Below, piece by piece: positions 1,754 through 23,200 of a stretch of DNA of 47,623 nucleotides. The translations under genes were made by a program, and so were the position numbers. Under the pieces are notes generated by a model. It searched no databases. It was not told where the DNA came from and saw nothing but the letters and a program-made list of their open reading frames with translations. Source of the stretch: Perkinsus marinus ATCC 50983 (Eukaryota > Perkinsozoa > Perkinsida > Perkinsidae); the NCBI RefSeq assembly GCF_000006405.1, contig NW_003211397.1, positions 314,817 through 362,439 on the forward strand, read 5' to 3'. The first letter of the stretch is position 1. Each line of letters starts with the position of its first letter.

Positions 1754-1775
1754 CTACCCTCAGGGTAGTACCCTG
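1754..1775. repeat. 7-8-7 inverted-copy motif (8-mer CTACCCTG)
   Basis: The 22 bases read as the first 7 bases of CTACCCTG, then its complete reverse complement, then its last 7 bases, with no mismatch. This is the first of about 15 examples of the pattern in the window. Confidence 0.9.
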
Positions 1776-2126
1776 GCGTGACCTTCGCGATCGTCAAGTT
1801 AATAGTCGAACATTAACGATCCCTTTGACGAGGGTAACGGCTTATATCGAGTAGCATATTCCAACAGTTTCCAATGGGAATACTGCTGTGAAGATTTTCG
1901 GGCTCTCTCACTGGTAACATAGTCCTCGAATACTTTCTGAATGGACGAGTCTGGCGACTAAAATGATTGGGTTTTGCTTGCATAATACAAGTTGCATTCG
2001 GTATTCCTAGACTGACCTCCAGGCATCTCACTGACAATTACTCACGAATTTCCCTCTCTTTGTCACAGTTACTCTTACAGCAAAGCCGCTTCAGCGTTCC
2101 TTTCTCCTTTCCTCTCTGTTTCTCAA

Positions 2127-3767
2127 ATGAAAATCGCCACTTGGACGATCGTTTCCTTCCTCTGTGTGGTTCCCACAGCTGCCCGTCTATTGCGCGATAA
2201 CATGGACCCCGCAAACTCGGCTTTGTTTACCTCAAAAGCAATGGAAGAAGCCCTCGCAGCACCCTCCCCCGAGGCCGTTTCTATGACTGGTGGTGGAGAT
2301 TCGCCGGTTACTGACTGGATCGACGAGTTCATCGATTCGCTCAAGTCTTTCGCGAGTAATAAGTTGCTGAGTGTTGCTAGCAGAATCATCGACACTCTCG
2401 GTGATACTATTGACGGTGAGGACATGTACTTCAACTTCATACCCAAACACGTCGCTACCTTGAAAACTGACGGGCAGTGGCACCATTACACAGGGAGATG
2501 CTTCCGGAATATCAAAGTTCGCGCTAGCCTTCAATCCGACGGTACTTGTATCATAGAGGCTGATTACCGTAATGCTATCTCTTGGACATGTGCTGAGTAC
2601 GTCCTGTACGGCAACGTCGATGACTTCCATATGCAGTACAAGATCATTCGAGGCACTGAGACGTATAAATGGACTGCAAATCACGACAAGGTTCACGTCT
2701 TCGACCTTAGCACGTCCCTGAGCAACGCAGCCCAAGGCGTCATCAAAACCGCCGACTTTCTCCTTGGTAGAGATGTCGAGGAGTTCCTCAAGCATTTCAA
2801 TCATCTCCAATTTGAGAAGCGCGCCGAACCAGGCGCAGTGGACATAAAGGAAGAAGATATCCATCCTGGTGATGTTGTTATGGTGACCAACCTCCAAGGT
2901 CAGAGTGCTGCTATAATGTGGGGTGGTGGTTCCATTCCAAGTCATACTCTGATGTTCCTGCGTGATCCCGAGACTCAGAAGCTCCATGCCGTTGAGAGCT
3001 GGGCTGGTGGTGTACGCAAGCTCCCTTTCGAGGAATATCTGAAGGACGACGCTGGATGGTATAACAACGCCGTACTCGTTCCTTTAAAGGAGGAACTCCG
3101 TGACAGCTTCGACAACGATGCTGCCTGGAAGAAGTTCGTCACTGAGTTCGAGGGCAATGACTACGGATTCGGCAACTTCCTCTTCACTGTTGTAGATACT
3201 CTCAAGGACAATTACCCCTGTCTCCCAATGGATGGCTACCAAACCTGCCTATCATGGGAGTTTGTTGAAGTTGCCGTAGGTCTTGTGGAGCGAGTGAAGC
3301 CCGACATGGCTCAATTGATATTCGGCCAAGCTCTTAATCATCGCCTAGGCACCGAAGGCCTCAGCTTGTCTGAAGTAGTCAAGACTGCCGATGCCAAGTT
3401 AGAGGGAGGCGCGGCGATTCTCCCCACCATTCCGGAAAATGATGACTGGACTTACGATACCCATCGTAACGGCCAAGCTGTCAAAGGGCCTAGCAGAGTT
3501 TGCAGCGCTCTCGTGTGTGAGATGCTTCGTGCTGGTGGTGCTCTGGGAAATCATGAACTCTCCTGCTCTGAGTTCACCCCATGGGATGTCTACAGTATGA
3601 ACATCTTCACCACTCCTACCTATCAACTCAAGGGGGATTACGCTATCGACTTGACCCAGCCTGAAGCACTACGCCTCGGCTACAAGCCGGTTACCGATAA
3701 CATGGCTCAAAAATGTGAAAGTATTATCACCGCGAATTCTTATTATGAACGAGCTAATGGGTGCTAA
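2127..3767 (+). CDS. Secreted permuted NlpC/P60-like protein, copy 1
   Basis: A single-exon gene for 546 aa. Residues 1-20 form a typical signal peptide (hydrophobic core, then TAARLL). Residues ~60-230 are a domain I do not recognise. From residue 243 there is EDIHPGD, followed by SHTLMFL with His273, VESW at 289-292, and GPSRVCSALVCEML with Cys459. A PGD turn, then His, then a later Cys in a CSxLV context, is the order expected of the circularly permuted NlpC/P60 (YiiX-like, papain-fold) superfamily, so a secreted peptidase, amidase or acyltransferase-type activity is inferred. The substrate is unknown. Two paralogues lie on the opposite strand (6022-7659, 11130-12767) and share the whole architecture, including many Cys. 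The start was chosen because the signal peptide follows it directly. The lack of introns contrasts with the neighbouring housekeeping genes. Confidence 0.85.
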   Translation: MKIATWTIVSFLCVVPTAARLLRDNMDPANSALFTSKAMEEALAAPSPEAVSMTGGGDSPVTDWIDEFIDSLKSFASNKLLSVASRIIDTLGDTIDGEDMYFNFIPKHVATLKTDGQWHHYTGRCFRNIKVRASLQSDGTCIIEADYRNAISWTCAEYVLYGNVDDFHMQYKIIRGTETYKWTANHDKVHVFDLSTSLSNAAQGVIKTADFLLGRDVEEFLKHFNHLQFEKRAEPGAVDIKEEDIHPGDVVMVTNLQGQSAAIMWGGGSIPSHTLMFLRDPETQKLHAVESWAGGVRKLPFEEYLKDDAGWYNNAVLVPLKEELRDSFDNDAAWKKFVTEFEGNDYGFGNFLFTVVDTLKDNYPCLPMDGYQTCLSWEFVEVAVGLVERVKPDMAQLIFGQALNHRLGTEGLSLSEVVKTADAKLEGGAAILPTIPENDDWTYDTHRNGQAVKGPSRVCSALVCEMLRAGGALGNHELSCSEFTPWDVYSMNIFTTPTYQLKGDYAIDLTQPEALRLGYKPVTDNMAQKCESIITANSYYERANGC

Positions 3768-4147
3768 CCTAAAATCATGTCCAGTGGTACTTGTCGCATA
3801 TTGTCAATACTTTAGACTATCATAGTGTTACTTATATTGACTCTCTACCGGGCATTCAGTTCTACACTGTTGCTCACGTTCCTGGTAGATGTAGAGATAT
3901 TATCCGTTTTACTCTTTGCCGTTTCTAGCCCTCTTGGATGAACGTCGAGTTACGCGATACTGGGATGGCTTGAGGCACACTGGGTATGGCGAATCGATAA
4001 TTCTCTCGAGGAGAAATCACACCGATTTTGAACTATTATGAGTATCGATCACGCAAGGGCCTCGCGGCAAGGCGAATCTTCAGAAGCATGTTATTTTAAG
4101 GATACTAGTAGTGAGCGTTTTTGCATAGTGTCTTCAATTGTACATGT

Positions 4148-4223
4148 CGCATGTGGCTTGAGAATTTATCAAGCCACATGCGTGCAATGAGTTTACTATT
4201 TATCAATGATAAATAGTAAACTC
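4148..4223. repeat. Two adjacent hairpins
   Basis: 4148-4182 has perfect 14-bp arms (CGCATGTGGCTTGA) around a 7-base loop. 4189-4223 has perfect 17-bp arms starting GAGTTTACTA around a single A. Transcribed, both would fold strongly. No coding region surrounds them. Confidence 0.9.
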
Positions 4224-4448
4224 CGTGAGGAGGTGCGAAAAAATTGGGGAAAAACTCACGGTAGGGTCCTTGGCGACTCAGGCCATCTTCAGAGGATTGA
4301 AAATAGTACTAGCGATAGAGAATAATGAGAGTTATATACCGCTAAGAGAGTATTTGCTGTCTGTGATTATTGCCATGCTGATGAGGCATCGTTCTTGTGC
4401 AGGTCGAAAATAGGACCTGTGACGTGGCCAGTCGTTCCGGACGACTGT

Positions 4449-4470
4449 GAGCTTCCGAAGCTCAGCTTCG
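4449..4470. repeat. 7-8-7 inverted-copy motif (8-mer GAGCTTCG)
   Basis: This is a perfect 22-base example: the first 7 bases of GAGCTTCG, its full reverse complement, then its last 7 bases. Confidence 0.9.
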
Positions 4471-4818
4471 TAGGTCAACGATATATCTATGCCAATGAGC
4501 TGTCGCGGTAAGTGCTAGCATAGAATGCTGACTCAGCATTGCTAATCATCCTAGCCTCGCGCTGCCAGCGTGGCGCTAGTAGCATCAATCATTCGAGGTC
4601 CTAAGCCTGACATCAAGTAAAGCGGGTCATGCGTGACTTACGGCGCGTAAGTTTTGAGTGTGTGGTACACAGCTGTGCCTTTCTCTCCTATTTGTCTCAC
4701 AAGTTTTGTGATGATCAGTGAGTATCAAGCTCATACTATCAAGTATAGTTTTTTGTGGTTTTTGTTCGGAGACAGTTGATGCCTGAGATCATATACGTAG
4801 TCCATCGTCTCGATCCAG

Positions 4819-4923
4819 CTCAAGAAATACTGTATTGACAATACAGTACTTCTTGAGCATGAGTGTTTCTTGAAGGTGTATTCCCACCGGGCCGGTGGAA
4901 ATCCACAATACAGTATTGTGGAT
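4819..4923. repeat. Cluster of three palindromes
   Basis: 4819-4857 has 19-base arms with one mismatch around a single A. 4884-4898 (CCACCGG) has 7-base arms around one G. 4901-4923 (ATCCACAATAC) has 11-base arms around one A. All three have one-base centres. Confidence 0.9.
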
Positions 4924-5223
4924 ATGCGCTACAACTGTACAATCGTATTTTTCGTCCTTAGCTACGAAGCTTTAAATCCTTAGCCCAAATCAATAAGAAG
5001 TTCTTCTGATAATGTTCAACTGCGGCTTAGGTCTACAGCTCCCACATCAAATGCTTCATTTCAGAAGTGGAAGGAGGAGTATGAGCGTCTCGTGAGAGAA
5101 CTGGAGGTGTGAACAGTGAGCGGTGATGCTGATTCATAGAAGCCCGAGCAAGAGCGGTCAGCACTACGAGAGTAGTGCCAAGTTTTCTTTGAAAAGAAAA
5201 CTAGTAATAGAACTCGAGATAGT

Positions 5224-5541
5224 GTGGAGAACATTGTTGCTCGTCGATTATCATTCTTCATTGACGATCTGAAGGACGCCGGTGTACGATGGACTCTCAA
5301 GGAAGTGGTTGGAGAACCGAGCGGATTCTCTGAGCTGTTTCTGAGCCGACGATCTTCTTACTTTGTTCGAGTCCAAGCCCGTTGCGCATGTGTCTCACTT
5401 TCTTATAATGTGGGCATTGATCGGCTCATTCGTATTCGGCGTGAGTCGAATTTCTATGGTGAGGTTGTGGAGATGCTGTTGGATGAGGGTGATTGTACCA
5501 TACCGCCTATGATGAAGGAACTTTCTTCAAGAAGGCTTTGA
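5224..5541 (+). pseudogene. Open-frame fragment, paralogue of 10249-10653
   Basis: This and the paralogous stretch share a conserved block (GIDRLIRIRRES here, DIDRLIRIRRES in the other copy, then a VLLDE-type segment and TIPP). The 5' ends diverge in frame, and the other copy extends further (LCDDGVLLAPTYLHGDL). I do not recognise the family. The frame is open in both copies, but with no convincing start or splice sites a relic of a larger gene duplicated with the segment is the likeliest reading. Confidence 0.35.
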
Positions 5542-5571
5542 AACGGAAGCAGCGATGATGGTGTTCGCATG

Positions 5572-5593
5572 CTTGATAATATCAAGCTGATAT
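5572..5593. repeat. 7-8-7 motif, one mismatch (8-mer CTTGATAT)
   Basis: Left and middle parts are perfect and the right part has one mismatch. The duplicated segment at about 10660 lacks these 14 extra bases and reads straight through the single 8-mer region. Confidence 0.8.
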
Positions 5594-5616
5594 CATTTCC
5601 ATGACATTGTATTGGG

Positions 5617-5653
5617 CATGACATTGTCATAATGACAAGCTGTCATTGACAAC
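5617..5653. repeat. Two nested 7-8-7 motifs
   Basis: 5632-5653 is a 7-8-7 unit of ATGACAAC with one mismatch, and it is shared with the paralogous segment (10676-10697). 5617-5638 is a second unit (8-mer CATGACAA, one mismatch) built on the left arm of the first and absent from the paralogue. The two events therefore happened in sequence. Confidence 0.75.
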
Positions 5654-6021
5654 TCAAATAGCGCATTAATGCTATGAAATGAGAACTGCTCGCAGCCCGA
5701 GGCTCATCAGGGCGAGGTGCATGGGTCGAGTTGATGATCGCATATCAAAGAGATTATACCATACATAAATCGTGTATCATCTTTCCATAATTGAGTCGCT
5801 TAAACATTGTATCTCCAACAGGCTATCCCAAACATTGGATCTCCCGTTGGAAAGCACGTGTAACTTCCCTTTCCCGTTGTAACGGAAAGCAGAATGAGAA
5901 GGCGAACTTACCATCCATCGGAAGAAGAGAAATAGGGTACGATTGCTGGTCTAAAATACTCGCAGAATAACGAGTGAGCACTTAGAGATAAAAAAAGGCT
6001 ATGTCAGAGGAGTAGCAAACC

Positions 6022-7659
6022 TCAGCAATGAGGCTCTCTGGCGTAGTAGGAATCCGCGGTGATTATACTACCACATCTCTGAGCCATATTATTGGTAACT
6101 GACTTCTGACCCAGGCGCAATGGTTCAGGTTTGGTCAAGTTGATAACGTAGTCCCCTTTGAGTTGGTGAGTAGGAGTAGTGAAAATATCCATACTGTAAA
6201 TATCAAAAGGGGTGAACTCAGAACAGGAGAGCTCATGGTCGCCTAGAGCGCCACCAGCACGGAGCAATTCACATAAGAGAGCGCTGCAAACGCGCGAGGG
6301 TCCCATCACGGCCTGGCCGTTACGATGGATATGGTAGGTCCAGTTGTCCTTCTCTGGAATAGTTGGGAGCACAGCAGAGCCGCCCTTGAGCTTGGCATCG
6401 GCCATCTTGAGCAGATCACTCACATTCAATGCAGTTGTGTTCATGCGATGGTTTAAGGCCTCGAGGAAAAGCAGGTTGGCGATATCGGGTCTAACACGCT
6501 CGACCAAACCGAGAAGGACTTGAATGAGCTCCCATGATAGGCAGGTTTGGTAGTCATCCATCGGATGGCAGGGATAATTGTCCTTGAGAGTATCTACAAC
6601 AGTGAAGAGGAAGTTATTGAATCCGTAGTCATTGCCCTCGAACTCAGTGATGAACTTCTTCCAAGCAGCATCGTTGTCGAAACTGTCACGGAGCTCCTCT
6701 TTCAGAGGAACGTGAACGGCGTTTTTATAAGGAGCAGTATCGTTCTTGAGATATTCCTCAAATGTGAGCTTGCGGACACCAGTATACCAGCTTTCAACAA
6801 CGTAGAGTTTTTGAGTCTCGGGCTCACGCAAGAACATCGCAGTATGACTTGCTAGGGAACCGCCACTCCACATAATAGATGTACTCTGGCCATCGATGCA
6901 AGTGACCATAATGGCATCACCAGGATGAATATCTTCCTCAGATATCTCAACTTCACCAGGGTTGGATCGCTTGTCGAAAGTGATGTTCATGAAGTGTTCA
7001 ACAAAGCCTAGTGCATGGTCATGGCCACGCAAAAAGGCTACGGTTTCGATGATAGTATCAATTGCATTTTCCAGCGAAGTGCGGAGATCAAAGAAGTAGA
7101 TCTTTCCCTTGTTAGCAGTCCAGGTATAGATTTTGGTGCCATGCATTTCCTCATATCGCACAGAGAAGTCTTCAACGTTACCGTAGAGAACGTATTCAGC
7201 ACAAGTCCAGGAGACGGCATCTTGGTAGTCAGCTTCAATCACGATGGTGCCATCGTGTTGTTCAGTAGAGCGTACCTTGATGGATCGGAAGCAGCGTCCG
7301 CTAAAGCTATGCCACTGCCCGTCGTTGTCCAAGGTTGCAACATGTCTCGGAAGAAAGTTGTAAAGCATATCAACACTCTCAATATGATCATCAAGAGTAT
7401 CCACAATCTTTAAAGCCCAGCTGAGGAGCTCTGACTGAGCCCAGGACTCCAAGTGGGTTATAGAGCTCTCGAACCAGTCTATAATGGGATGGGCAGAAGA
7501 GCTAGAAGACCCATCAGTTTTGATTGTAAGCTCGGAGTTGAGATATTCCTCGATACTTCGCGAGTTAAAGATGATAGAATCACTGCCATGCCCAGGAAGT
7601 CGAGCAACAACTATATTGAAGATCGACCAGAGGGTTAAGACGTTGCAGCCGATGCGCAT
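6022..7659 (-). CDS. Secreted permuted NlpC/P60-like protein, copy 2
   Basis: A single-exon gene for 545 aa. The N-terminus is hydrophobic (VLTLWSIFNIVVARLPG), a likely signal peptide, followed by a Ser-rich linker (SSSSS near residue 51). The C-terminal half carries EDIHPGD at ~242, SHTAMFL with His272, VESW, and GPSRVCSALLCELLRAGG with Cys458, the His-then-Cys order of circularly permuted NlpC/P60 (YiiX-like) enzymes. It is a close paralogue of 11130-12767. I count about 12 differences in the last 300 residues but clearly more in the first 245. It is more distant from 2127-3767. Several N-glycosylation sequons fit a secreted protein. The activity and substrate are inferred from the fold family only. 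Confidence 0.85.
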   Translation of the reverse strand: MRIGCNVLTLWSIFNIVVARLPGHGSDSIIFNSRSIEEYLNSELTIKTDGSSSSSAHPIIDWFESSITHLESWAQSELLSWALKIVDTLDDHIESVDMLYNFLPRHVATLDNDGQWHSFSGRCFRSIKVRSTEQHDGTIVIEADYQDAVSWTCAEYVLYGNVEDFSVRYEEMHGTKIYTWTANKGKIYFFDLRTSLENAIDTIIETVAFLRGHDHALGFVEHFMNITFDKRSNPGEVEISEEDIHPGDAIMVTCIDGQSTSIMWSGGSLASHTAMFLREPETQKLYVVESWYTGVRKLTFEEYLKNDTAPYKNAVHVPLKEELRDSFDNDAAWKKFITEFEGNDYGFNNFLFTVVDTLKDNYPCHPMDDYQTCLSWELIQVLLGLVERVRPDIANLLFLEALNHRMNTTALNVSDLLKMADAKLKGGSAVLPTIPEKDNWTYHIHRNGQAVMGPSRVCSALLCELLRAGGALGDHELSCSEFTPFDIYSMDIFTTPTHQLKGDYVINLTKPEPLRLGQKSVTNNMAQRCGSIITADSYYAREPHC

Positions 7660-8251
7660 CGGAGAACACGGTAAAGGCCAACTGTAAGGAGGCGGAACAT
7701 TCTATCCAGCAGCGCTAAATGAAGGACGCGTTTTCAGCAGATGCTTGAAGTCCGCTACCCGAATCAAATTACACTCATGGAGAATTCCCATTGGAAATGC
7801 TCGGATCACAGTGATGCATACAGAATGACTTAGCTAAAGTGGCATAATGGTCAGCTACATTATGTAACATCAATGAAGTGACTTCGTTGAAGTCACGTAC
7901 CATACATCGGGGAGCAACCAAGGATAGGGTTTGTCTCGTAGTTAGGCAAATGAGTCATACGCCCAAGGCCTTGTGATGTGACTAACGCTATATGAACGAC
8001 CAAGATAGACCTGGCTATAACGGTGATCATGCCAAAAACCTCTCAAGAATATAGGGTGGGAGAACCGATACGTCATTCAGCGAAGGCTGGATTTCCAGTC
8101 ATGGATGAGATCGCTAATCAGACCAACTTGCCACTAGTTTTAGGTTGGTAGTCTTATTGTCTATAGATTAGCAATCGGGGAATCCATGGCCTGTGGGTTC
8201 GGAGGTTCTATGTGGCAAGGAACGCATGGCGTGAACTGCGGTTCAAGTTCT
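7660..8251. other. Upstream region of copy 2 gene
   Basis: This is the duplicated 5' flank of the secreted-protein gene, alignable to about 12768-13138. No gene was seen. It contains the 7-8-7 motif at 7873-7894. Confidence 0.5.
7873..7894. repeat. 7-8-7 motif (8-mer ATGAAGTC), one mismatch
   Basis: The outer parts match ATGAAGTC exactly and the central inverted copy has one substitution. The paralogous site at 12995-13002 holds the single 8-mer only, so 14 bases were gained here or lost there. Confidence 0.85.
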
Positions 8252-8486
8252 CCCCACCTTGCTCTTCTTGATGAGTTGAATAAGTGCGGCACTTCAAGTT
8301 GTCCGACAGCGGAGGCTCCGTTGTCTCCTCTAAATATGCCGTCCACCTCATCCATAATCAATCACGGCTTCCCGAGTCATATCGATTTACATTCGACCCT
8401 ATTATTCCCACTCAGTGGGACCCACTGGCCAAGTGAGTAGCTCTGTCCGATATCCGCATTGGTTGCCGAACCGATACCAGATTGTG
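8252..8486 (-). pseudogene. Degenerate RFC1 genomic fragment
   Basis: This stretch aligns with the RFC1 gene at about 17693-17900, covering the exon that encodes the Walker B region (LVMDEVDGM there, MIMDEVDGI here), the short intron beside it, and part of the previous exon. Because intron sequence is included, it is a DNA-level copy and not a retrocopy. Substitutions, small indels and a 14-base palindromic insertion at 8406-8427 break the reading frame. It is separated from the intact gene by about 9 kb and lies on the same strand. Confidence 0.8.
8406..8427. repeat. 7-8-7 motif (8-mer TCCCACTG)
   Basis: A perfect 22-base unit inside the RFC1 fragment. The intact RFC1 gene has the single 8-mer TCCCACTG at the same place (about 17824-17831), which gives a clear before/after pair. 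Confidence 0.9.
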
Positions 8487-8713
8487 TGACACAGAGGACA
8501 CGCAGTGAGTCCGTGGGCGTGACACAGAACGCGCGCAATGTGTTGTGGGTCCAGTTTGCCTACAATCTTGCTATATTGCTGATCTTCCCACCGCTAGTGT
8601 TGTTCCTTCCCATCCCGAAGGGTATTGCTATCCCCTGAGAGGTTGCACTATGGAGAAAACCTTCGCCATCCCCTTATAGCGAGTGAACCCAATATCGATT
8701 ACTATGCTTCTCA

Positions 8714-8732
8714 CAGTGTATAATATACACTG
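8714..8732. repeat. Palindrome CAGTGTATA, 1-base centre
   Basis: Perfect 9-bp arms flank a single A. Confidence 0.85.
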
Positions 8733-8882
8733 TATATGCGTGCAGAGGTCAAGCGCATTCGTGTGGAAGATTCGTGCGGGTAGTGCGCTTATTGTTAGTG
8801 TGCTAGGGTCGCAGTATTGGTTGCTCTAGCTCGAATTCCCTTATTGTGTTCCTCTCAGGGTTCATCAACTGATACCGCGACA

Positions 8883-8913: not shown

Positions 8914-8949
8914 ACGTTATAATCAGTATGGTCTTTCTCCAAAGCTTAG

Positions 8950-8971
8950 CTGGAACGGTTCCAGTGGAACC
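8950..8971. repeat. 7-8-7 motif (8-mer CTGGAACC)
   Basis: A perfect 22-base unit. It has no paralogous site in the window. Confidence 0.9.
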
Positions 8972-10189: not shown

Positions 10190-10235
10190 GGGGGCTCAGC
10201 CCCCGGGGCTGGTGTACGATTATCGTACTACGATA
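10190..10235. repeat. Two 7-8-7 motifs two bases apart
   Basis: 10190-10211 is a perfect unit of GGGGGCTG and 10214-10235 a perfect unit of GTACGATA. At the latter site the paralogous segment (about 5284) has a single GTACGATG and lacks the 14 bases. Confidence 0.9.
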
Positions 10236-10248: not shown

Positions 10249-10653
10249 GTGATTAGTTCTGAGAACCAAGCGGATTCTCTGCTCGGAGCAGAGAACGGAG
10301 TCCGTTCGTGGGTCGCATTGAAAGGCCTCGGAGTAGTAAATGACGATCTTCCTCCTGAATTCGAGTCCAAGCCAGCGCCGCATATGCCTCACTTGGTCCA
10401 TAATGTGGACATTGATCGGCTCATTCGTATTCGGCGTGAGTCAAAGCTCTCTGATGAGGTTGTGAAGGTGCTGTTGGATGAGAGTGATGGTACCATACCG
10501 CCTACGGTGAAGAAAGCCTTGAAACGGGAGAGGCTTTGCGATGACGGCGTTCTACTTGCACCAACCTATCTCCATGGTGATCTCACTCGAATTTTGAGGG
10601 AAGTGAGTTCTCATGATGAGAATCTCATCCCAACGAACACCCAATGGTTATAA
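10249..10653 (+). pseudogene. Open-frame fragment, paralogue of 5224-5541
   Basis: Encodes 134 residues from the first Met with DIDRLIRIRRES, KVLLDES and TIPPTVKKALKRERLCDD. The family is unknown to me. A perfect palindrome (10-base arms TTCTCTGCTC, one-base centre) inside it at 10275-10295 is absent from the paralogue, which argues against strong protein-level constraint. It is probably a relic. Confidence 0.35.
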
Positions 10654-10675
10654 AAGAATGCCTGATACCATTTCC

Positions 10676-10697
10676 ATGACAAGCTGTCATTGACAAC
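10676..10697. repeat. 7-8-7 motif (8-mer ATGACAAC), one mismatch
   Basis: The same unit is present in the paralogous segment at 5632-5653, so it predates the segmental duplication. Confidence 0.8.
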
Positions 10698-11129
10698 TCG
10701 ACAGCGGATTGCTTGAAACTGCTTGTAACCCAAGGCTCATCAGGGCGACGTGCCTAAGTCGAGCTGACGATCGCCTACCAATGATATTACACCATACAGG
10801 GAAAGTGTATCATCATCCTACCACGATTGAGTCGTCGATTAATATTATCTTCAACCGACTATCTTAAACACTTCGACCTCTCGCCAGAAAACCTTCCTCC
10901 AACAGAATTTCGCCGTCCTAATAACGGGAAGTATGCAGGCGGCTATAGGGCCCACGAGACCGTGCCGCTTCAAACTATCAAGAAGGAGAAGAAAAAAAAT
11001 AACGGGGAGGAGAATGAGGATTCCAAGTTACCATCCATCGAAAAGGTACGATAGCTGCTCTGAAATAATCGCAGAATGGCGAGTGAGGGCCGAAAGACTA
11101 AAGGCTCTATTCTAGAGGAATCGTAACAC

Positions 11130-12767
11130 TTAGCAATGAGGCTCTCTGACGTAGTAAGAACCCGCGGTGATTATACTACCACATCTCTGAGCCATATTAC
11201 TGGTAACTGACTTCTGCCCGAGGCGCAATGCTTCAGGTTTGGTCAAGTTGATAACGTAGTCCCCTTTGAGCTGGTGGGTAGGAGTAGTGAAAATATCCAT
11301 ACTATAAATATCAAAAGGAGTGAACTCAGAACAGGAGAGCTCATGGTCGCCTAGAGCGCCACCAGCACGGAGCAATTCACACACGAGAGCGCTGCAAACG
11401 CGCGAGGGTCCCATCACGGCCTGGCCGTTACGATGGATATGGTAGGTCCAGTTGTCCTTCTCTGGAATAGTTGGGAGCACAGCAGAGCCGCCCTTGAGCT
11501 TGGCATCGGCCATCTTGAGCAGATCACTCACATTCAATGCAGTTGTGTTCATGCGATGGTTTAAGGCCTCGAGGAAAAGCAGGTTGGCGATATCGGGCCT
11601 AACACGCTCGACCAAACCGAGAAGGACTTGGATGAGCTCCCATGATAGGCAGGTTTGGTAGTCATCCATCGGAAGGCAGGGATAATTGCTCTTGATAGTA
11701 TCCGCGATAGTGAAGAGGAAGTTATTGAATCCGTAGTCATTGCCCTCGAACTCGGTGATGAACTTCTTCCAGGCAGCATCGTTGTCGAAGCTGTCACGGA
11801 GTTCGTTCTTCAGAGGAATGTGAACGGCGTTTTTATAAGGAGCAGTATCGTTCTTGAGATATTCTTCAAATGTGAGCTTGCGGACACCAGTATACCAGCT
11901 TTCAACAACGTAGAGTTTTTGAGTCTCGGGCTCACGCAAGAACATCGCAGTATGACTTGCTAGGGAACCGCCACTCCACATAATAGATGTACTCTGGCCA
12001 TCGATGCAAGTGACCATAATGGCATCACCAGGATGAATATCTTCCTCAGATATCTTAACTTCACCAGGGTTGGTACGCTTCTCGAAAGTGATGTTCATGA
12101 AGTGTTTAACGAAGTCGAGGGCGTGATCATGACCACGCAAAAAGGCTACGGTTTTATCGATGCCTTCAACTGCATTTTTCAGCGAAGTGCGGAGATCAAA
12201 GAAGTAGATATTTCCCTTGTTAGCAGTCCAGGTATAGATTTTGGTGCCATGCAGTTCCTCATATCGCGCAGAGAAGTCATCAGCGTTACCGTATACAATA
12301 TATTCAGCACAAGTTCGAGAGAAGGCATCTTGGTAGTCAGCTTCGATCACGATGGTGCCATTTTGTTGTTCAGTTGAGCGTACCTTGATGGATCGGAAGC
12401 AGCGGCCACTGAAGCTATGCCACTGCCCGTCGTTGTCCAAGGTCGCAACATATCTCGGGACAAAGTTGTAAAGCATATCAACACCCTCAATATGATCATC
12501 AACAGTATCCGCAATCTCCAAAGCCCAACTGAGGAGCTCCGACTTAGCCCAGGACTTCAAGTGAGTTATAGAGCTCTCGAACCAGTCTATAATGGGATGG
12601 GCAGACGAGCTAGAAGACCCATCGGTTTTGATTGTAGGCTCGGAGTTGAGGTATTCCTCGATACTTCGCGAGTTAAAGATGATAGAATTACTGCCACGCC
12701 CAGGAAGTCGAGCAACAACTATATTGAAGATTGACCAGAGGGTTAAGACGTTGCAGCCGATGCGCAT
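11130..12767 (-). CDS. Secreted permuted NlpC/P60-like protein, copy 3
   Basis: A single-exon gene for 545 aa and the closest paralogue of 6022-7659. It has the same N-terminal signal peptide, Ser-rich linker, PGD turn, His272, VESW and Cys458 in a CSALVCELL context, so the permuted NlpC/P60-like core looks intact. The two paralogues are almost identical in the 3' half and drift in the 5' half, a gradient that suggests gene conversion or selection. Flanking DNA is duplicated too, so the pair arose by segmental duplication. All catalytic candidate residues are kept in all three copies. Confidence 0.85.
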   Translation of the reverse strand: MRIGCNVLTLWSIFNIVVARLPGRGSNSIIFNSRSIEEYLNSEPTIKTDGSSSSSAHPIIDWFESSITHLKSWAKSELLSWALEIADTVDDHIEGVDMLYNFVPRYVATLDNDGQWHSFSGRCFRSIKVRSTEQQNGTIVIEADYQDAFSRTCAEYIVYGNADDFSARYEELHGTKIYTWTANKGNIYFFDLRTSLKNAVEGIDKTVAFLRGHDHALDFVKHFMNITFEKRTNPGEVKISEEDIHPGDAIMVTCIDGQSTSIMWSGGSLASHTAMFLREPETQKLYVVESWYTGVRKLTFEEYLKNDTAPYKNAVHIPLKNELRDSFDNDAAWKKFITEFEGNDYGFNNFLFTIADTIKSNYPCLPMDDYQTCLSWELIQVLLGLVERVRPDIANLLFLEALNHRMNTTALNVSDLLKMADAKLKGGSAVLPTIPEKDNWTYHIHRNGQAVMGPSRVCSALVCELLRAGGALGDHELSCSEFTPFDIYSMDIFTTPTHQLKGDYVINLTKPEALRLGQKSVTSNMAQRCGSIITAGSYYVREPHC

Positions 12768-12894
12768 CGGAGAACACGGTAAAGGCCAACTGTAAGGAGG
12801 CGAAACATTCTATTCAGCAGCGCTGAATGAAGGACGCGTCATCAGCAGATGCTTGAAATCCGCTACCCGAATCAAATTACACTCATAGAGAATT

Positions 12895-12916
12895 CCCATT
12901 GCCAATGGGCCATTGG
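12895..12916. repeat. 7-8-7 motif (8-mer CCCATTGG)
   Basis: A perfect unit. The paralogous site at 7787-7794 carries the single 8-mer CCCATTGG. Confidence 0.9.
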
Positions 12917-13512
12917 AGATGCTCGGATCACAGTGGTGCACACAGAATGGCTCAGCTAAAGTGACATAATGGTCAGCTACATTATATAACATCAATGAAG
13001 TCACGTACAGTTGATCGGTGGTCAGCCAAGGAAGGGCTTTGTCCCGCAGTTGAACTACGGTGGTTCCGCATATGAGTTATATGCCTAATGCATCATGATA
13101 TGACCAACGCTACATGGACAACCAAGCTAGAGTTGACTACTGTGCGTGCGTTTTTCTTATGCAAATGCGTGAAAATTCGATTTCTCGGGTAATACGGCGA
13201 ATATTCATACAATATCTCAGCATAATGAATGCATCCATATAACAAGTATACACTAGGAGTTTGGTTGGCTAAATCGAACTCCCGATTGACTTATTGAGGC
13301 GCGTGCTAAAATGACCGTAGGCAGGCGTGCAAATTTCTTAAGCAATTCTGTTGTCCGCAACTCAGATGGCCAAAGGCAGCTTCCTAACCGAGGAAGAAAA
13401 GGCTATGCTAGTGAAATGATCATCAGGCCGAAAGAGTTTAAACGTGTGTATTGTGGGCCCTACACGTGCACACCCCATAGACGATTTCAGTGGCGCAAAG
13501 CTTCGCTAAGAC

Positions 13513-13534
13513 TACAACGTCGTTGTAACAACGA
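13513..13534. repeat. 7-8-7 motif (8-mer TACAACGA)
   Basis: A perfect 22-base unit. Confidence 0.9.
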
Positions 13535-13713: not shown

Positions 13714-13735
13714 CGCGCGGACCGCGCGGCGCGGT
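13714..13735. repeat. 7-8-7 motif (8-mer CGCGCGGT)
   Basis: A perfect 22-base unit, GC-rich. Confidence 0.9.
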
Positions 13736-14695: not shown

Positions 14696-17600
14696 TTAGA
14701 CTATCCCAGCCATTCGGGGATCTTCGGCTTCTTTATCTTCCTCGTCCACCGTAACTTGTTCATCGTCTTGCGACCCCGCTACTGCCGCTGACTTCCTTCC
14801 CTTCGACCCCTGACATAATCGTCCTACACTAAATACAACATGAACAAATATCATGCCACGACTGTGCATGCAGAAGCTCATCACAATTTCCTATGATCAA
14901 GAAAACTCAGTGTGAGGAAATGCTGTCCAGCTTATAGACTTTTGCAATACTTATTCCCATTGCTAGCCTAGCATACGCTTAATGATAACTGTATTGATGA
15001 CAAGTTGAGAACCACTTGTTAATGACTCTTGCTGAGTTGTCTAATCCCAACACTCACTTTCGCGGTACCAGCTCCTTTAACTTTGAACATATTGGGCGCA
15101 CTGCCCGGCAACAGCACCTTGGACTTGTGTGCTCCTTTGTTGTAACTACAACCACCAATGATAACTCAGTTGTCCTGCGAACACCGTACCTCCGTGTGAG
15201 AGCACTTTTCGTCTTAGCATCAATCGTCTTGTATCTGACAACATCGACTTCATCATCAACGACTCTCGCGAAGTCGCGTCAACTCATCAGGTTGTGTTGG
15301 CAGTCTTAGATCTGTAAGGCACTCCAACACTCCATCCTTCGACACACCCAGTTGATCAAGCAGTTGAATACAGCTAGCCACCTGAGAGCAACGAATAGTC
15401 AACTACTATCCCCAACCAAGGCCTTACCGAAGCGTGAGTGTCCTCCTTGCCGTTCTTCAACGGCTGCAAAATACTGTCATAAAGCAGGTCCATATAGCCC
15501 TGCAGTGCGCACATGCATTGAGAGTAATCGACTATATTCAGACAATACCGAAGTTCGAAGATCTCGGGCAGACATTGATGTCGTCTGTGACAGCATACCA
15601 CGAAGTTCGCGAACCTACGAGTAGTCTGCAACGGCGAAGGGAACGAAGGCACGCACCAGTCGAGCGTTCTTGGTAGTAGTGGAGTTCGCTCCCAACCACT
15701 GAGGAAACTCCGGAAAGCCGATGAAGTTGTTACAGTAGAAAGATGGGCCCACAGTTGAAAGGACCTATACATCAACCAATTCACCAACTGAGAGAAAAAG
15801 TTCAGAGACACTGCAAAACTGAGGAGCTATAAATTGTGCGGATGGCAACCAAAGAATCCTACGCAGTGCGAGGGCAGTAGCGTCCATTCCTGACCGCTCC
15901 TAACAGCTGTGGATATCATATCCGCCTCGCTCATGAGGTCGGCAGCCTTGGCAATGCCAGCCAAGGCCCGAGTGCTTGCCGGCCCAACCACCTAGCAAAA
16001 GATGAAAAGAGGCGGAGCGAAGCTGCTCAGCACATTCTCAACACATTTGATGTAGTTCTGCTGCATTAATAAAGGAATCAAATCATAGTCTACATAATAC
16101 CTGAAAATATGCAAGGTTGCAGCATGGAAGATACAAAGCAGGTCCGAATTACATATCACTCCGCTCTTTAAAGGACAAACGCCGTGCCATTGTCGAAGTA
16201 AGGAGGGTCTTGCACACATCAAAAGGACCTTCACATTTCCCTTCAACATCAACAACATCATCATCTCAGCCTATTCCTACTTAGCATATTCTGCACGTCC
16301 TTCCCCCCACCACGAGTACCAACCGATACCGTTGCGGCCTTACCCGACTCCGCAGCCAGACTGAGCATCTCTAGATTGTTGATTATCTAAATCGACCATC
16401 ATCTCTGTTGAAGTTACAACAACGTAACGCAGGCGCTAATACCAAATATTCAACGAAAATTTCCTACGACTGACAACCTCAGAATTATCGTCTAATGATT
16501 TTTCAGATGCCGAATCCACCTCCTACATGAATGAACGATAAAATGACCCTTCACGCGCCACAAAATAATCCCACAAATTTCCGACATACCCCATGTAACA
16601 ACCGCCGATTTTTCATGGTTACCTATGACATTCTTTGAGATTATAGTGATTTCTAACTACCTCAGACTCTTTTGCGTTTACATAATAGAAGTGAAACTCC
16701 CATGAACTAGTATTGGGAGAATATATGCTCGCTTTTCTCAGCTGAGCTCAGGAGTTTCCATCATAAAATGTATTATATAAACATATATAAATATATATAT
16801 TATTAATATTTTAATAATAATATTAGTAATATTTTATATTATATAAATATATTATTATTACTCCATTATAAAAGTGTTTTTCCTGAAACTTCCTCCCAGA
16901 ATTTCTGTACAGCCTACTTACGATACTCACCTGGCGCATATCCCCACCGAGCTGTTCCGCCAGCATCGCCATAGCGTCCGTATCAACCTAACGGGAACAA
17001 CAACATTTCGCCGAACAGGGACAGCACACAAGAACTCACATGAACTCCCTCAGACTTTGCTATAGCCGCCACTCGTTGGCTACACTGAGCTCCCGTTGGC
17101 TTCGTAAAGCGGATGTCATAACAGGAGTTAGCCAAGGAGCGCACCTATAAAGCCTTGTTATGAATTTGCAGAAAAGACCTTCGAGCCGTAGTAGTTTGGT
17201 TTTTGCTTTCTAGAATCTCGACCCCAGAGGGCCTAGAACCTCCGTCTAATTCCTCACAAAACTTCTTGGCCAACTCTTAGGAGTAGATTGACTCGGACAT
17301 AGCCCTGCTTACGAGCAGCTGGTGTTACCTTAGTGCTCATCCTGTCGTTGCAGATACACATAACTGGCATCTAAAAAGGAGAGAACCTCTTTATATAGCA
17401 ATAGAAATAACAGTGTGGGAAAAATATGCACGTGTTGGTGACAATATGAAAATTGTGAAGAATTTCTCCGAGATTATTACGAGCCTATACACTCCTGCCC
17501 GGATTCGTATGTGAACTTCTACAATTAGCGAGTAAACTCCTGAGCTCAGCTGAGGGAAGCGAACAGATATTCCTCCAACACTGACACACACCATGTGCCG

Positions 17601-20600
17601 AGCAAACCACAATAAAGTTTCTTTTACGCACATGAATCCAAAGGTCGACTACAAAAGATTCAAATCATGTCCACAACAGTACTCTCCCACCTTGCTCTTC
17701 TTAATGAGTTGAATAAGTGCCGCTCCTCCTCCTCTGTCCCCTCCAGACATGCCGTCCACCTCGTCCATAACCAAACACGGCTTCCTGAGTTCTATCGATT
17801 CACACTCGACAAGTCCCTATTATTCCCACTGCTTGAGTGAGTAGTTCTGTCCGATAACCGCATTGGTCGCCAGTCCTGAAGCCAGATTATCAACAGTCGC
17901 CTTGTTGCGTTGATCGGAGGCGTTGAACTCCATCGGCATCTAAAATACACGATACCATCACAACAAGATGCAGAATATTTACATAACCCAGTTCTCGAGC
18001 GACAAGGCGACATGCCGTGGTTTTGCCTATACCAGGTGGGCCCGAGACCAAAACTGCCTTGGCATTCACATTCTCCGGTACCTTACATCCACAAAGACGT
18101 TCCAAACACATCGACAAACCCTCGCTAAGTCTACTAAACCATATAAGCTACATTGAAAGATTCTCTCACCAACATATTTTGCGCGCACAGCGAAGATTGA
18201 TCGATTATGATTCTTTACTGACTGATAGCACAATAAACCATAAACAACCACAAGGGTGGCAAAAAATCAGAGAGAAATAATTATCAAATGCCTCGTATGC
18301 CTACATATTCCGAATACTAATATACTTATAAAATATTATGTAACCCAACAACTTACCCCACGCCCTCTGAATGTCACCGGTTTCTTTTGTCCATGAACAT
18401 GCACCTGAGCCATAGACCTACTCATACGCAGCGAAGCATACACTGTGAAAATCACTACTACACAACTACATCAGCTCAACTGTCGAGACACATAACATTC
18501 ATGTGTCCAAAAAGCATGTACCGGGGATCGAACCCGCAACCACCAGTTTCCTCGCAGAAATCTACTCATTCACTGAGCTTCACAACGACGAACCTCATTA
18601 TTCGACATGATAATTCAAAACAATAACAAAATATCATATAAGAAAAAAACAAAAGACTCCACAAGGCGGTGAGCCGCTCGCGATGGCAATTGAGATTTTC
18701 CCAATCGGCACTGGGGGAAAAATATTCCAACAAAAAATGGCAAAAACGACAAGATACAATTGCGACCCACCTTTTCCCAGTCCTGTAACCATGTTCTCAA
18801 CTTGGTGATAGGTGCGTTGTTCCCTACCAAATCCTTCAGCGTGCGAGGCTTATATCTGATCACCATCACATCTTACCCTCATCATAGACAACAACAGTGC
18901 TGCAAAAAATGTTCGCTTTCCTCAGCTGAGCTCCAAATTTTCCTCACTAATCATAAAATTTTATATACGAATTGGAAGAATATATACGACTAGTGTACAG
19001 ACACTAACAAGGATTTCCCAAACTTTCCTCAGAGTTTTCATATTGTCACCAACACATGTGGTTGACCATGCGCAAATTTTACCACACGGGACAACAAAGA
19101 CCCCACTTTTCCGTCCATAGGATTCCCTTCACATCGCCACCACTACTGCCGTCTTTTCGTGACGATGTCGGCTTGATCGCATCAACAGTGACTTTCACTT
19201 GCTCCTGAAAATAAAAGTAATACCACACCTTCGAATAATTTCACATAACTACAGTCAACACTGTTCGCTGCATCCGATCGTTTTTACCAATGGATTCTTA
19301 TCAAAATCATAACAGAGGTAAAAAACTATATTTCGCACATTTTACAACTCCTCCATAGCGTGATCGATTACGTAAAATTTGGACATTTTCTTTCCCAGAT
19401 GCTACTCGTGTTAGGACAACTCCTGTAACCAATCGCACTGTAGCTCACCGCAGCGCTGCCAACCTTCAGCCAATTATATAAGTAAACATACGAGTCCGAA
19501 TAAAAACATGTAAAAATCCTTGATAATTCCTCAACATTGCCTTGGAAATTTTCCATTTTATCACTAACATGTTTTCCACCCACATTTCCCATGGAAAGTC
19601 AAATATACCTCCAACTTACCACCGCGACATTGCCAGCCTTCATAAGCCCCGCTTTCTGAAGTTTCTCTATGAATTCACTTTCTTGCAACAAACTAGGTCC
19701 CGGCTTCCCTGCTGCCCTCAACTCTTGCGTCTTTTTGAACCTAAAATTTCAAAAATTTTAAAAAAAGTGAGGAGAAAAAATTACAACATCTCGAAGTGAA
19801 CTCAGAGTAGTCTATTAGTAACCAATGTCAGTTACTCTCTTATGACTATATAAGAACTTGCATAGGTTATAACAGCTATGTGATAACACTGGAGTTTCAC
19901 GACTACCCGTTTTACGTGAAGTGGCGTAAAACACGAAATTTGCGCTATGCGGTAGTCGTGAAATATGTTTTCCACTAGTGTTATTCATATCATTAGGGTG
20001 GTGAAACTCCACTGTTATCACACACGTATGTGCAATCACACACAATAAAGTCAACCAATTGAAATAATAACCACATATTATCACAACAGCTCACTTAGAG
20101 CCTTCCTCAATAGGTCGACCATCCTCCAATACTGACCCTACTACTAGATACGTCGTACCTTACAAGGAGCAACTAAGCGTGTGGATAAACTGCAACACTC
20201 ACGCCCAGAGACTGCCGTGGTGACCTTTGCGCCAGCTAGCTTCGCTTTAGTCACTGCCAAGTCTCGCTGAAAAATTAACAAAATTCTAACAGTAGTAATA
20301 TACTCAACGTAATGCAATACGCTCTCGTACAGACCTCAAGCCGCTCCAAATTGCCGGTAAAGACAAGCGTCTTTCCATTGAAAGGCTTCTCATCCGTCAC
20401 TGCTGGTGGCGGCGACTTCGCCGACTTGCGAGGCTTAGGGGATGCTCCTACGGGCTGTTACGATGTTCGCGCAGTCGGTTTTTCAAGTTATCACATTCGC
20501 GCATGAAACAGCTATAATTACAGATCCTAAATTCACCAATAATTCTTCATAGAAAAATAATTTCTGTTTCCTCGTCCATTCCGAACACTACATGCATCGC

Positions 20601-21825
20601 CCACCCGAAATGCACAACCTTCACATAGTCTTCCTAGATGTATAGCAGGAATATCGAGGAGTTCAGGTACAAGGTATGGCATAACCATTTGAGAGGGAGA
20701 CGATTCAGATCACTCTACTCGTTAGTAAAAACGATGAATCATGAGTAGGGAAGGTCAATCGAAGTTGAGCAAGGAATCGGCTATTCCTTCCTCACTTGGA
20801 AGAGATAATAGGATATTCGTAGGATGCAATTCCGAACAGCATCTTACCAGTATCCAAAAACCCGGTTAACAATAGTCAGCTGCAAAGCCCTATAAGCCAT
20901 ACAATTCCCTCCATTAACCTGCCTTTTCTCGCTTTCGCCGATGCGGCTGATTTCGGCGCCGGACTCCTATGCTGCTTCCTCACCTTAGCTGAGGACTTCG
21001 GCGGTGTGGCCGGCGAATCTGAGAAGAAGACTACCACTCAATAGTAGCAGTGTTCCCTTCAACTCTACGCTTTCTCTTCTTCGCCGACTTAGGCCGACCC
21101 GTTGAGCCATCCTCGGAACTACTCCCCAGTGATATCGGAGCGGGGGACTTCGCCATCGCAGACTTGGATTTCGATGCAGCTCCTCCTGAACAGAACCAGT
21201 GAGTAATCATTGATAACGCCGCTGACGAATCGAGAGGTTCTATAAGAACGCTGATTCCAGTAGAGCAGCCTGGTACTAGTCGGTATTGCTACCACTAGGC
21301 ATCTACGACTATACATGAAGGTAAAGCTGGAATTGTGGACTGGATAGAAACGCAATAGCAGACAGGTCGTAGTTTTATCAACAAATCCCAGGTTGAAAGC
21401 TGCCAACAGAATACTACAACATTTCAACTAAACCGATGAGGATTCACAAGCATCTCTTAGGTAGTCGGGCGAACAAGCGTTTCGGACATTACATGGCGAA
21501 TACCACAAAGACGCTAAAGTTCTTCTACTCGCCTCTATACCACTTCGAAGTATTTCCATCTAGATCAGCAGTAATACCACACTTTCATCCTCACCTGCTC
21601 CAAAAAATGCTGCAATACTGTTGATATCAGCCTTCGACTTGACATCCTTTCCACCCTGGTTCTTATGCTCCTTTTTGGACTACAGGGAAAACGGTGAATC
21701 ACACCGTAAACTTGAGTCATCGCCCACTTCAATTCGTGGAGGTATTCCTTTCGTTCTCCCACCCACTGGCGGTGACGGTGATTGGGCAACTCTGAAGGCG
21801 AAATCGACTCCAGCCGCAGTGTCAT
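14696..21825 (-). CDS. RFC1: Replication factor C large subunit, multi-exon
   Basis: RFC1 is the large ATPase of the clamp loader that opens PCNA on DNA in the nucleus. Exons read in order on the minus strand: a PIP-like segment ADINSIAAFFGAG (21595-21679); Lys/Pro/Ser-rich linkers (21069-21185, 20919-21018); a BRCT domain split over GKTLVFTGNLERLE (20335-20447) and RDLAVTKAKLAGAKV (20203-20266); then 19620-19740; ILWTEK (19107-19204) joined to YKPRTLKDLVG (18771-18855); Walker A SGPPGIGKTTA (17983-18081); NASDQR (17830-17939); Walker B LVMDEVDGM (17701-17791); MCICNDR (17329-17370); RSLANSCYDIRF (17040-17144); LAEQLGGDMRQ (16931-16987); YYVDYDLIPLLMQQNY (16034-16100); the C-terminal all-helical part to about 15000; and an acidic Lys-rich tail ending at 14696. 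Introns are mostly 38-52 nt, with several expanded by element B or A. The first exon and a 32-nt first intron are the least certain parts, and an exon between 20450 and 20918 may be missed. Confidence 0.9.
16711..16870 (-). mobile_element. Partial element B plus AT-rich tract in RFC1 intron
   Basis: 16711-16762 matches the CAGCTGAGCTCAGGAGTTT end of element B. It runs into about 100 bases of nearly pure A/T (16765-16865). All of it lies inside the RFC1 intron downstream of the GGDMRQ exon. Confidence 0.65.
17411..17583 (+). mobile_element. Element B, complete copy
   Basis: It begins CAGTGTGGGAAAAATATG and ends with the inverted form ATATTCCTCCAACACTG (173 bp). Internal landmarks are GTTGGTGACAATATGAAAAT on the left and CTCCTGAGCTCAGCTGAGG on the right. 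No coding capacity. It lies in the RFC1 intron between the Walker B and CICNDR exons. Confidence 0.8.
18509..18586 (-). other. tRNA-like sequence in RFC1 intron
   Basis: On the minus strand it has a D-arm-like part (AGCTCAGTGAATGAGT) and a good T-arm/B-box (GGGTTCGATCCCCGG), followed by a T run. The acceptor stem does not pair, so a functional tRNA is unlikely. It resembles a degenerate tRNA or a tRNA-derived short element. Confidence 0.45.
18898..19090 (-). mobile_element. Element B copy in RFC1 intron
   Basis: Both characteristic ends are present in reverse order: TTTCCTCAGCTGAGCTC at the left and GTCACCAACACATGTGGTTG near 19045 on the right. It fills most of the intron between exons 19107-19204 and 18771-18855. 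Confidence 0.7.
19890..20011. mobile_element. Element A copy in RFC1 intron
   Basis: Terminal inverted repeats GGAGTTTCAC and GTGAAACTCC, with the internal landmarks TTTTACGTGAAGTGGCGTAA and CATATCATTAGGGTGG. It is flanked by ACT on both sides, a possible 3-bp target duplication. Non-coding miniature element. Confidence 0.8.
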
Positions 21826-22109
21826 ATCTAACAATATACGAAGTATGGCCTCCGATACTTGATATCTAGATTGAGATCATTGCTTCTTACGTGAACTTCG
21901 CCTTCTTCTGCATACTGAGCGCAAAAATGTACTTGTAAAACTACAAGTGAGTGCGTACGTCAGCGCGCGCCATTACGATGTCAGCGCGACAAGAGATGTC
22001 GCTCGCCCCATGCTGTATTCCTCGCTCGGCTGTAATCGTTACATCTATCTTTCGGATCTTAGGAACGGCTAGATCCCCTATAGACGTTCTTCAGGTCAAG
22101 TCTTGGAAC

Positions 22110-22138
22110 CAGGAAACTGGAAAGTTTCCAGTTTCCTG
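22110..22138. repeat. Palindrome, 14-bp arms, 1-base centre
   Basis: Arms CAGGAAACTGGAAA and its exact reverse complement flank one G. The arms themselves contain an internal GGAAA direct repeat. Confidence 0.9.
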
Positions 22139-22651
22139 AAACCCTGATTTGAATGAGTAATCTGACACTTTGTTGAGTAACCTCATTGTAACTCTGGTTC
22201 TACTTGAGTTAACCAGTTCATGTTAGCAACACATTGTAATCCCTACTGCCTCCTCAGCCCCTGTTTTGCTACTGACAACTAAACGCTGAATGAATCGTAC
22301 ATCGTATACAACCGACATTGAACAAATATTGGTAGCATCAATTTGATACACAGGCGGCTCAAAGCGTTTCACTGAAAAGGCGAAAGCGTGGATGCAACAC
22401 AGAAATTCAAATTGTAAAGTTTCCAGACTTAGAGGGCCTTCGAACCTCCTTGGTGATACTCATACGGAATGGTGATATGGGCCGATTCTCCAAGCATAGA
22501 ACTGCGTGTGATCGTAGCCTGCTCATCAAACTTCACCGCGGCCTGTTATAACTCCGAGACCATATAACTACTATTCTCCATCCCACCTTCAATCGCCGTT
22601 TCCCACTTATTCGTTTGCCGCCTCTGAGAGCGAGAATTGATCGCGTAAGGA

Positions 22652-22673
22652 GTATCTTCAAGATACTATCTTG
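22652..22673. repeat. 7-8-7 motif (8-mer GTATCTTG)
   Basis: A perfect 22-base unit. Confidence 0.9.
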
Positions 22674-22690
22674 AGGTGGCACTATACCAG

Positions 22691-23200
22691 TGGCATAGTT
22701 GCCCCACCGAAAAACGTTGATGGTAAGTTACCACTGGTAACAGCCGGTTACAGTGTGTTACTATGCCGCATAGTTGCCTGTGGGATCTATCGTATTGAGT
22801 TGTATCTCGCGATGACATCGTCATCTCACCCAGGACAACCGTCTACACTAAGGCATATCTTTAATTGGCATAGGCGCCCCACTCTCATCAAGCTGCACAT
22901 AATCCTAGACTGGAATTCCGAGTAGTCCTCAAGCTCAACATATTCCCAATGCAATACATCTGCGGCCTATGAACACGGGGGAGGAGGCGAATCGAATATT
23001 AAGCCCCTACAGAGGGCATCTCGGCGTGGCATAGCTGCCCCACTTTAAACATCGTTCTCACTAAGGCAAATCGGCTTGGCATACCTGCCCCATCCTCACC
23101 ACACTAAGCCTAGAGATTCGCACAAGAGACAAATTGAATGTCAATATTACTGACTCAGTAATGTCACTCGAGAGCATCATGTGGTGGCATAGCTGCCCCA
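22691..23200. repeat. Dispersed GGCATAGCTGCCCCA words
   Basis: Near-identical words occur at about 22692, 23028, 23073 and 23186. The last two carry a longer shared context (CCTCACC..CACT.AGCCTAGAG). They lie between the SPINDLY 3' end and the RFC1 5' end. They could be regulatory repeats or remnants of a local duplication. Confidence 0.6.
22720..22741. repeat. 7-8-7 motif (8-mer GTGGTAAC), one mismatch
   Basis: Middle and right parts are perfect; the first base of the left part differs. Confidence 0.8.

Follow-up and report, generated by a model that had tools for sequence, protein, structure and literature searches.

A fixed 7-8-7 insertion scar at many sites of the Perkinsus marinus genome and its possible origin in hAT transposon excision

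Which process could leave the same small inverted copy at many unrelated sequences of one genome? This question is raised by a stretch of 47,623 bp from the alveolate protist Perkinsus marinus ATCC 50983 (Perkinsozoa; RefSeq assembly GCF_000006405.1, contig NW_003211397.1, positions 314,817–362,439 of the forward strand), referred to here as the window, in which an 8-mer, w, is repeatedly found turned into its first seven bases, its full reverse complement, rc(w), and its last seven bases (w1–7, rc(w), w2–8; 22 bases in total, hereafter a 7-8-7 site). Scanning revealed 13 perfect sites on 13 different 8-mers, compared with about 0.0002 expected by chance (47.5 kb/4^14), in line with the statement of a first-pass annotation that chance cannot produce the pattern. 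All ten sites that it had called perfect were exact, and three more (8716, 10608, and 23540) had been overlooked, the last of which extends the span of perfect sites in the window to position 23561. Its list of one-mismatch sites needed correction: those at 5572, 5617, and 22720 indeed have one mismatch each, while two each were counted at 5632, 10676, and 7873 with the middle copy as the source of w. With the w of its empty paralog (see below), site 7873 shows only one mismatch, and a further one-mismatch site at 23140 was absent from the list. Matches within a run of 100 N near position 29530 were spurious and were discarded. Finally, none of the 13 perfect sites overlaps any of the seven open reading frames (ORFs) of at least 150 amino acids; with its net gain of 14 bases, a site inside an ORF would shift the reading frame.

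The nature of the event could be read from paralogs. Nine sites have a paralog exactly 14 bases shorter, and at seven of these the paralog keeps plain w (at 13045 and L028:680 the 8-mer of the paralog differs from w), which shows that plain 8-mers are the starting point of the event. This event, the conversion of w into w1–7, rc(w), w2–8 with a net gain of 14 bases, has been repeated independently. Within the window, the perfect site at 12895–12916 (w=CCCATTGG) is matched by an empty, pre-event copy with plain CCCATTGG at 7787–7794, the perfect site at 8406–8427 (w=TCCCACTG) by plain TCCCACTG at 17824–17831, and the decayed site at 7873–7894 (w=ATGAAGTC) by plain ATGAAGTC at 12995–13002, while an old two-mismatch site at 13045–13066 is 14 bases longer than the corresponding position in the 7.9-kb copy. 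Outside the window, site L028:680 shows a net gain of 14 bases compared to L022, and a site in one copy of a short repeat (L046) is absent from four of the six other copies, which align cleanly without the scar, the remaining two being too diverged. A single pair of paralogs (L034/L069, from C321 and C304) contributed three more such sites, of which L034 carries two (L034:90 and L034:1771) and L069 one (L069rc:952). In addition, this pair has two older scars in common (L034:1677 = L069rc:1816 and L034:1958 = L069rc:2083), one with an identical mismatch in both members and the other perfect in one copy with two mismatches in the other, so that the process is old and recurrent. These observations also bear on a sequencing, library, or assembly artefact as the source of the sites. 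Palindromic library artefacts are known (PMC6941819, as far as the available extract goes), but mutated older copies and decayed sites common to diverged paralogs point to inheritance, and we consider an artefact scarcely credible.

In regard to their share among small insertions and deletions (indels), 7-8-7 sites accounted for three of the four internal indels of at least 4 bases in the C321/C304 pair (95.1% identity over 1,662 aligned bases; N gap and ends excluded), and for 3/3, 1/3, 0/5, and 1/7 of the indels of at least 5 bases in four paralog pairs of the window. Two further comparisons were not counted as filled and empty pairs. The perfect site at 8716–8737 (w=GTGTATAT), which lies within a multi-copy repeat, shows a 14-base gap against a copy in C137 that is diverged. 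The perfect site at 22652–22673 (w=GTATCTTG) had been taken as a tenth pair with C254 and C200 and was withdrawn, as the two loci are homologous from the right arm onwards only, the left flank is unrelated, and 187 of 500 shuffles reach its score. The match to C254 and C200 covers 40 bases (window 22667–22706) and begins exactly at the right arm of this scar. As for the short repeat, one copy lies at window 8540–8882, where an 801-base query yielded 57 matching pieces, mostly from this repeat, and in another copy (L047:11) a perfect 7-8-7 site ends about at its left border.

Is the pattern a peculiarity of this locus? Our scans covered fetched portions of the 54.46-Mb assembly. Among 20 stretches of 10 kb chosen by place (four beside the window, the rest contig starts), nine were all N, and the 11 readable ones (71,909 bases) contained one perfect, seven one-mismatch, and seven two-mismatch sites versus 0.0003, 0.011, and 0.22 expected; together with the window (119,432 bases), they held 14 perfect and 11 one-mismatch sites. 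A set of 22 sequences (149,965 non-N bases), which is non-random, being composed of the window, the by-place stretches, and hAT loci, revealed 27 perfect sites (0.0006 expected), 18 with one mismatch (0.023), 26 with two (0.46), and 48 with three (5.5). For comparison, first-order Markov simulation (40 × 120 kb) gave no perfect and two one-mismatch sites in total. Counting distinct sites in 180,758 non-duplicate bases, much of which was chosen for hAT domains or paralogs, we obtained 37 perfect and 23 one-mismatch sites. The by-place stretches hold eight sites with no more than one mismatch, from which a rough extrapolation leads to about 6,000 such sites genome-wide. Many copies of one fixed small insertion scar are present in this protist genome.

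The next question is whether the geometry is really fixed. Scanning of arm lengths and offsets (k=5–13 with spacers of 0–4 in the window; k=6–12 with spacers of 0–3 in the 150 kb, classes with at least three matches) revealed a single strong class, namely an inverted 8-base block with one unmatched base per junction. Equal counts at other arm lengths and a broad spread of lengths had been raised in the first-pass annotation as outcomes that would speak against its reading; a comparable excess of perfect sites appeared at no other tested length or offset in the window or the 150 kb, and lengths in the scanned sequence were not broadly spread. The other classes in the 150 kb, k=9 (1,3) with five matches, k=9 (3,1) with seven, and k=10 (3,3) with three, fit the same 7-8-7 sites through one additional base matching by chance, and extension of the palindrome by one base among the 37 perfect sites (left 6, right 9) was close to the chance value of 1 in 4. 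Smaller classes were k=7 (2,2) with three matches versus 0.14 expected (150 kb) and k=5 (0,0) with four versus 0.045 (window). In the by-place stretches, perfect 4-5-4 sites numbered nine versus 1.1 expected, a smaller excess than that of 7-8-7, and 6-7-6 sites showed a weak excess with no perfect match, five with one mismatch versus 0.15 (among which two overlap), and 16 with two mismatches versus 2.6. Taking direct 6-mer repeats with inserts of 1–15 bases, only the class with 8-base inserts stood out as built from rc(w) (27/131). A candidate class of partial footprints, with one-base inserts, was rejected, as 25 of 66 were rc(w)-built, close to the chance value of 7 in 16. Direct repeats at spacings of 9–12 showed a raw excess in the 150-kb scan, to which simple repeats contribute. 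The window also contains longer hairpins or double palindromes unlike 7-8-7 at 22110–22145 (arm 14), 34961–34990 (arm 10), and 4895–4925 (arm 11).

Template switches produce inverted copies, and the presence in the window of some double palindromes of other geometry would agree with ordinary quasi-palindrome template switching during replication or repair as the source. This process predicts a broad range of arms and spacers, however, while the lengths observed here are fixed and their extension is close to chance; hence, we regard it as very improbable.

What, then, could set a length of eight with an offset of one base on both sides? In hAT transposition, the transposase nicks one base outside the element end and a hairpin forms on the flank. 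We consider it fairly probable that the 7-8-7 sites are repaired scars, each left where a hAT-type DNA transposon was excised and the two flank hairpins were annealed through the duplicated 8-mer. At insertion, the 8-base target w would be duplicated on both sides of the element. At excision, the transposase would nick one base outside each end, and the 3' end of each flank would be joined to its own opposite strand, giving a left hairpin of w1–7 joined to rc(w) and a right hairpin of rc(w) minus its last base joined to w. Once these hairpins were opened and unfolded, their single strands could pair at length only in the 8-base rc(w):w block, and annealing there, followed by flap trimming and filling of two 7-base gaps, would yield w1–7, rc(w), w2–8 with its 14 additional bases. 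This product would be independent of the exact position of the opening nick, provided that the nick lay outside w, while opening at the tips and direct w:w annealing would restore w without a trace. Annealing through rc(w):w would account both for the fixed length and for the missing class of partial inverted copies. When the hairpin strands were modelled with 25-base flanks, the rc(w) block was the longest pairing, with no ties, at every one of the 36 perfect sites (of 37) whose flanks were usable; this is a modelled rather than an observed intermediate. The palindrome centres of the scars correspond to the complement of the element-bordering base, and one flank base is lost per side, as hAT chemistry predicts. 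In regard to the repair enzymes, the genome encodes a theta-like family A polymerase (L073; best PDB match DNA polymerase theta, E=2e-23, for the polymerase part). The geometry, the pre-event 8-mer in paralogs, the independent recurrence of the event, and the hAT elements with 8-bp duplications described below can be read directly, while excision, annealing, and a pathway of the polymerase theta type are our inference.

An identical product would result if, in hAT excision, the transposase or a nuclease of the host made a second nick exactly where the 8-base duplication ends on its outer side, so that complementary 8-base 3' tails were left. That inverted copies of intermediate length form no standout class suits this variant as well, but it demands an exact cut eight bases from each hairpin tip, and palindrome lengths vary in studies of Candida, yeast, and Ac/Ds in plants, according to the available extract of PMC5873905. 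Overall, a second nick of such precision seems unlikely to us.

Excision scars require elements that could have caused them, and hAT elements are indeed present. We found 19 matches to the hAT dimerisation domain in the genome, and one hAT family is bounded by CATAC...GTATG, with short terminal inverted repeats of this sequence at both ends of the copies read. It comprises three copies of 4.34 kb and others of about 1.4–1.6 kb, about 17 bounded copies being a lower bound. Among the 11 testable copies (12 fetched), 10 lie between perfect 8-bp target duplications; copy C23 has no duplication, and C249 has N as its left flank. The stretch L031:913–1710 carries the C-terminal hAT dimerisation domain (PF05699, E=1.1e-6, over the curated cut-off), while a zf-BED match in the element is weak and below the cut-off (E=0.021), and a C-x-x-H stretch was seen by eye in L031:138–491. 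Identity between two long copies reaches 99.86% (4,348 bases), so that hAT movement has probably been recent. A non-autonomous hAT copy (L052/L053, C282:1024–2657) was found inside what by eye appears to be a tRNA gene. With respect to a link between elements and scars, the target duplications of the hAT family prefer T at position 2 and A at position 7 (14/20), and the 8-mers of scars with at most one mismatch lean the same way (46/120, p = 0.0045). Moreover, one perfect scar (L035:1025) ends three bases from the duplication of an intact hAT copy.

Duplications of 8 bp are also made by elements of the P and Merlin superfamilies. Since the 8-base length suffices for the pattern and the scars retain no element sequence, an element of such a superfamily rather than a hAT could have left them. 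On the other hand, hATs with 8-bp duplications are present here (the search covered hAT only), and a flank hairpin with a one-base offset is described as a hAT trait in the available extract of PMC5873905, so we consider another superfamily quite improbable.

Several observations weigh against excised hAT elements as the source of the scars. The preference for T2/A7 is not significant for perfect scars alone (25/74, p = 0.12), and no paralog with an element still at the scar site was found in own-genome paralog searches. The bounded hAT copies, about 17 as a lower bound, would be far outnumbered by the excisions that about 6,000 extrapolated scars represent. Not all paralogs differ by this event either: none of the five indels of at least 5 bases in a 3.2-kb pair (25650–28900 versus 29715–33000) and only one of seven in another (5340–7760 versus 10330–12880, with a 10-base gap and poor alignment) is a 7-8-7 site, and the one-mismatch site at 5617–5638, whose paralog near 10670 has plain CATGACAA, differs from that paralog by more than 14 bases, its insertion being longer and containing a partial repeat. 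With a Ku-like match in the genome, classical end joining may be present as well. Finally, the uniformity of the scars is not typical of studied hAT footprints, since 28 footprint types were found among 128 clones in C. albicans (PMC5873905). The reading as hAT-like excision footprints, already proposed in the first-pass annotation, is the best backed of those considered and is supported in part, namely by the geometry, the plain 8-mer, the hATs with 8-bp duplications, and the T2/A7 preference once one-mismatch sites are included.

Scars far exceeding the number of bounded hAT copies would be accounted for by damage without elements, in which a hAT transposase, possibly domesticated, makes 8-base staggered cuts that are filled in to 7 bases, after which the ends are joined as hairpins or the template is switched in two steps. 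Such cuts should share the T2/A7 preference of the elements, and a template switch in fixed register, the alternative offered in the first-pass annotation, yields the same product. Full fill-in would give 8-8-8, however, and by our reasoning only the nicks of hAT excision provide a ready cause for a one-base offset on both sides. We therefore view damage of this kind as rather improbable, and return to excision of hAT elements in comparing the scars with known systems.

Microhomology-dependent repair of transposon-induced hairpins in yeast was reportedly described by Yu et al. in 2004. In P. marinus, too, transposon hairpins and microhomology would come together, with the inverted target duplication serving as the microhomology. 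According to the available extracts of the papers cited in this paragraph, the footprints of hAT elements such as Ac/Ds, Tam3, and Hermes resemble our scars in target duplication, loss of flank bases, and P-nucleotide palindrome centres (PMC5873905, PMC1978519), the palindromes in Ac/Ds footprints being centred on the complement of the element-bordering base (PMC5873905). The footprints known so far vary, most of them being short palindromes or deletions, although palindrome arms of up to 20 occur in yeast (PMC5873905), whereas here a full 8-base inverted copy is found in one fixed form. In Arabidopsis, one short footprint accounted for 11 of the 17 cases at a single site (PMC1978519), so that a dominant product is not unprecedented, though it is short there. 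Excision repair of mPing also uses target-duplication microhomology (PMC4561436), but the repair of mPing is precise, while annealing of the inverted copies here would leave 14 additional bases. Hairpin-capped flanks are known from Hermes and Kat1 (PMC4763223), and the domesticated hAT Kat1 serves mating-type switching at one locus, in contrast to the many sites of P. marinus. The introner elements of Amoebophrya, with direct repeats of 3–5 nt, were considered and do not fit (PMC7789003). Among the matches listed in our literature search, whose coverage was without most subscription literature, titles and abstract openings did not describe the pattern. While palindromic footprints of hAT elements are already known, a single full-length form at many sites of one genome would, within the literature searched, be new.

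The remaining sites of the window are as follows. Exact patterns were found at 1754–1775 (w=CTACCCTG), for which the own-genome search matched the window only, with no paralog; at 4449–4470 (w=GAGCTTCG), whose sole paralog covers the first 152 query bases and not the site; and at 8950–8971 (w=CTGGAACC), 13513–13534 (w=TACAACGA), 13714–13735 (w=CGCGCGGT), and 23540–23561 (w=AACTCATA). For the perfect site at 10608–10629 (w=TTCTCATC) and the one-mismatch site at 5572–5593 (w=CTTGATAT), a paralog spans the site in poor alignment only, while the one-mismatch sites at 22720–22741 (w=GTGGTAAC) and 23140–23161 (w=GTCAGTAA) come from the pattern scan. The perfect sites at 10190–10211 (w=GGGGGCTG) and 10214–10235 (w=GTACGATA) are both without a clean spanning paralog in the window; they are separated by just two bases, a hint of local clustering, as with L035:1025 beside the hAT copy.

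Apart from the scars, the window harbors three paralogous ORFs of 545–546 amino acids (2127–3767, + strand; 6022–7659 and 11130–12767, − strand), which by eye have signal-peptide-like starts. They were considered as transposases and dropped, since there was no Pfam match over the cut-off and the first of them (P0001) resembles Perkinsus hypothetical proteins, which are its named relatives. Identity to the nearest named Perkinsus protein, from P. olseni, was 84% for a window protein. Further downstream, a gene with tetratricopeptide repeats (TPR) and a family 41 glycosyltransferase domain (O-GlcNAc transferase-like) is located at 23639–26059 (− strand), and a partial copy of it lies near 29690–30379 in a 4.1-kb duplication, with a tRNA-Pro gene in each duplicate.

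With regard to the biology behind the scars, the rejoining of hAT and V(D)J-type hairpin breaks is usually inferred from reporter footprints. The P. marinus sites offer a natural set of one uniform hairpin-repair product whose pre-event sequence is readable from paralogs, so that models of hairpin opening and annealing become testable, and past events can be marked and put in sequence by means of the scars. Mid-size indels in some non-coding paralogs are most often of this kind (3/3 of those of at least 5 bases and 3/4 of those of at least 4 bases; elsewhere 1/3, 1/7, and 0/5). As a tentative and rather doubtful extension, the scars may reflect a near-deterministic or dedicated way in which this protist lineage resolves transposase hairpins, perhaps with a domesticated hAT transposase cutting without elements, and would then represent a major source of mid-size non-coding insertions in this genome.

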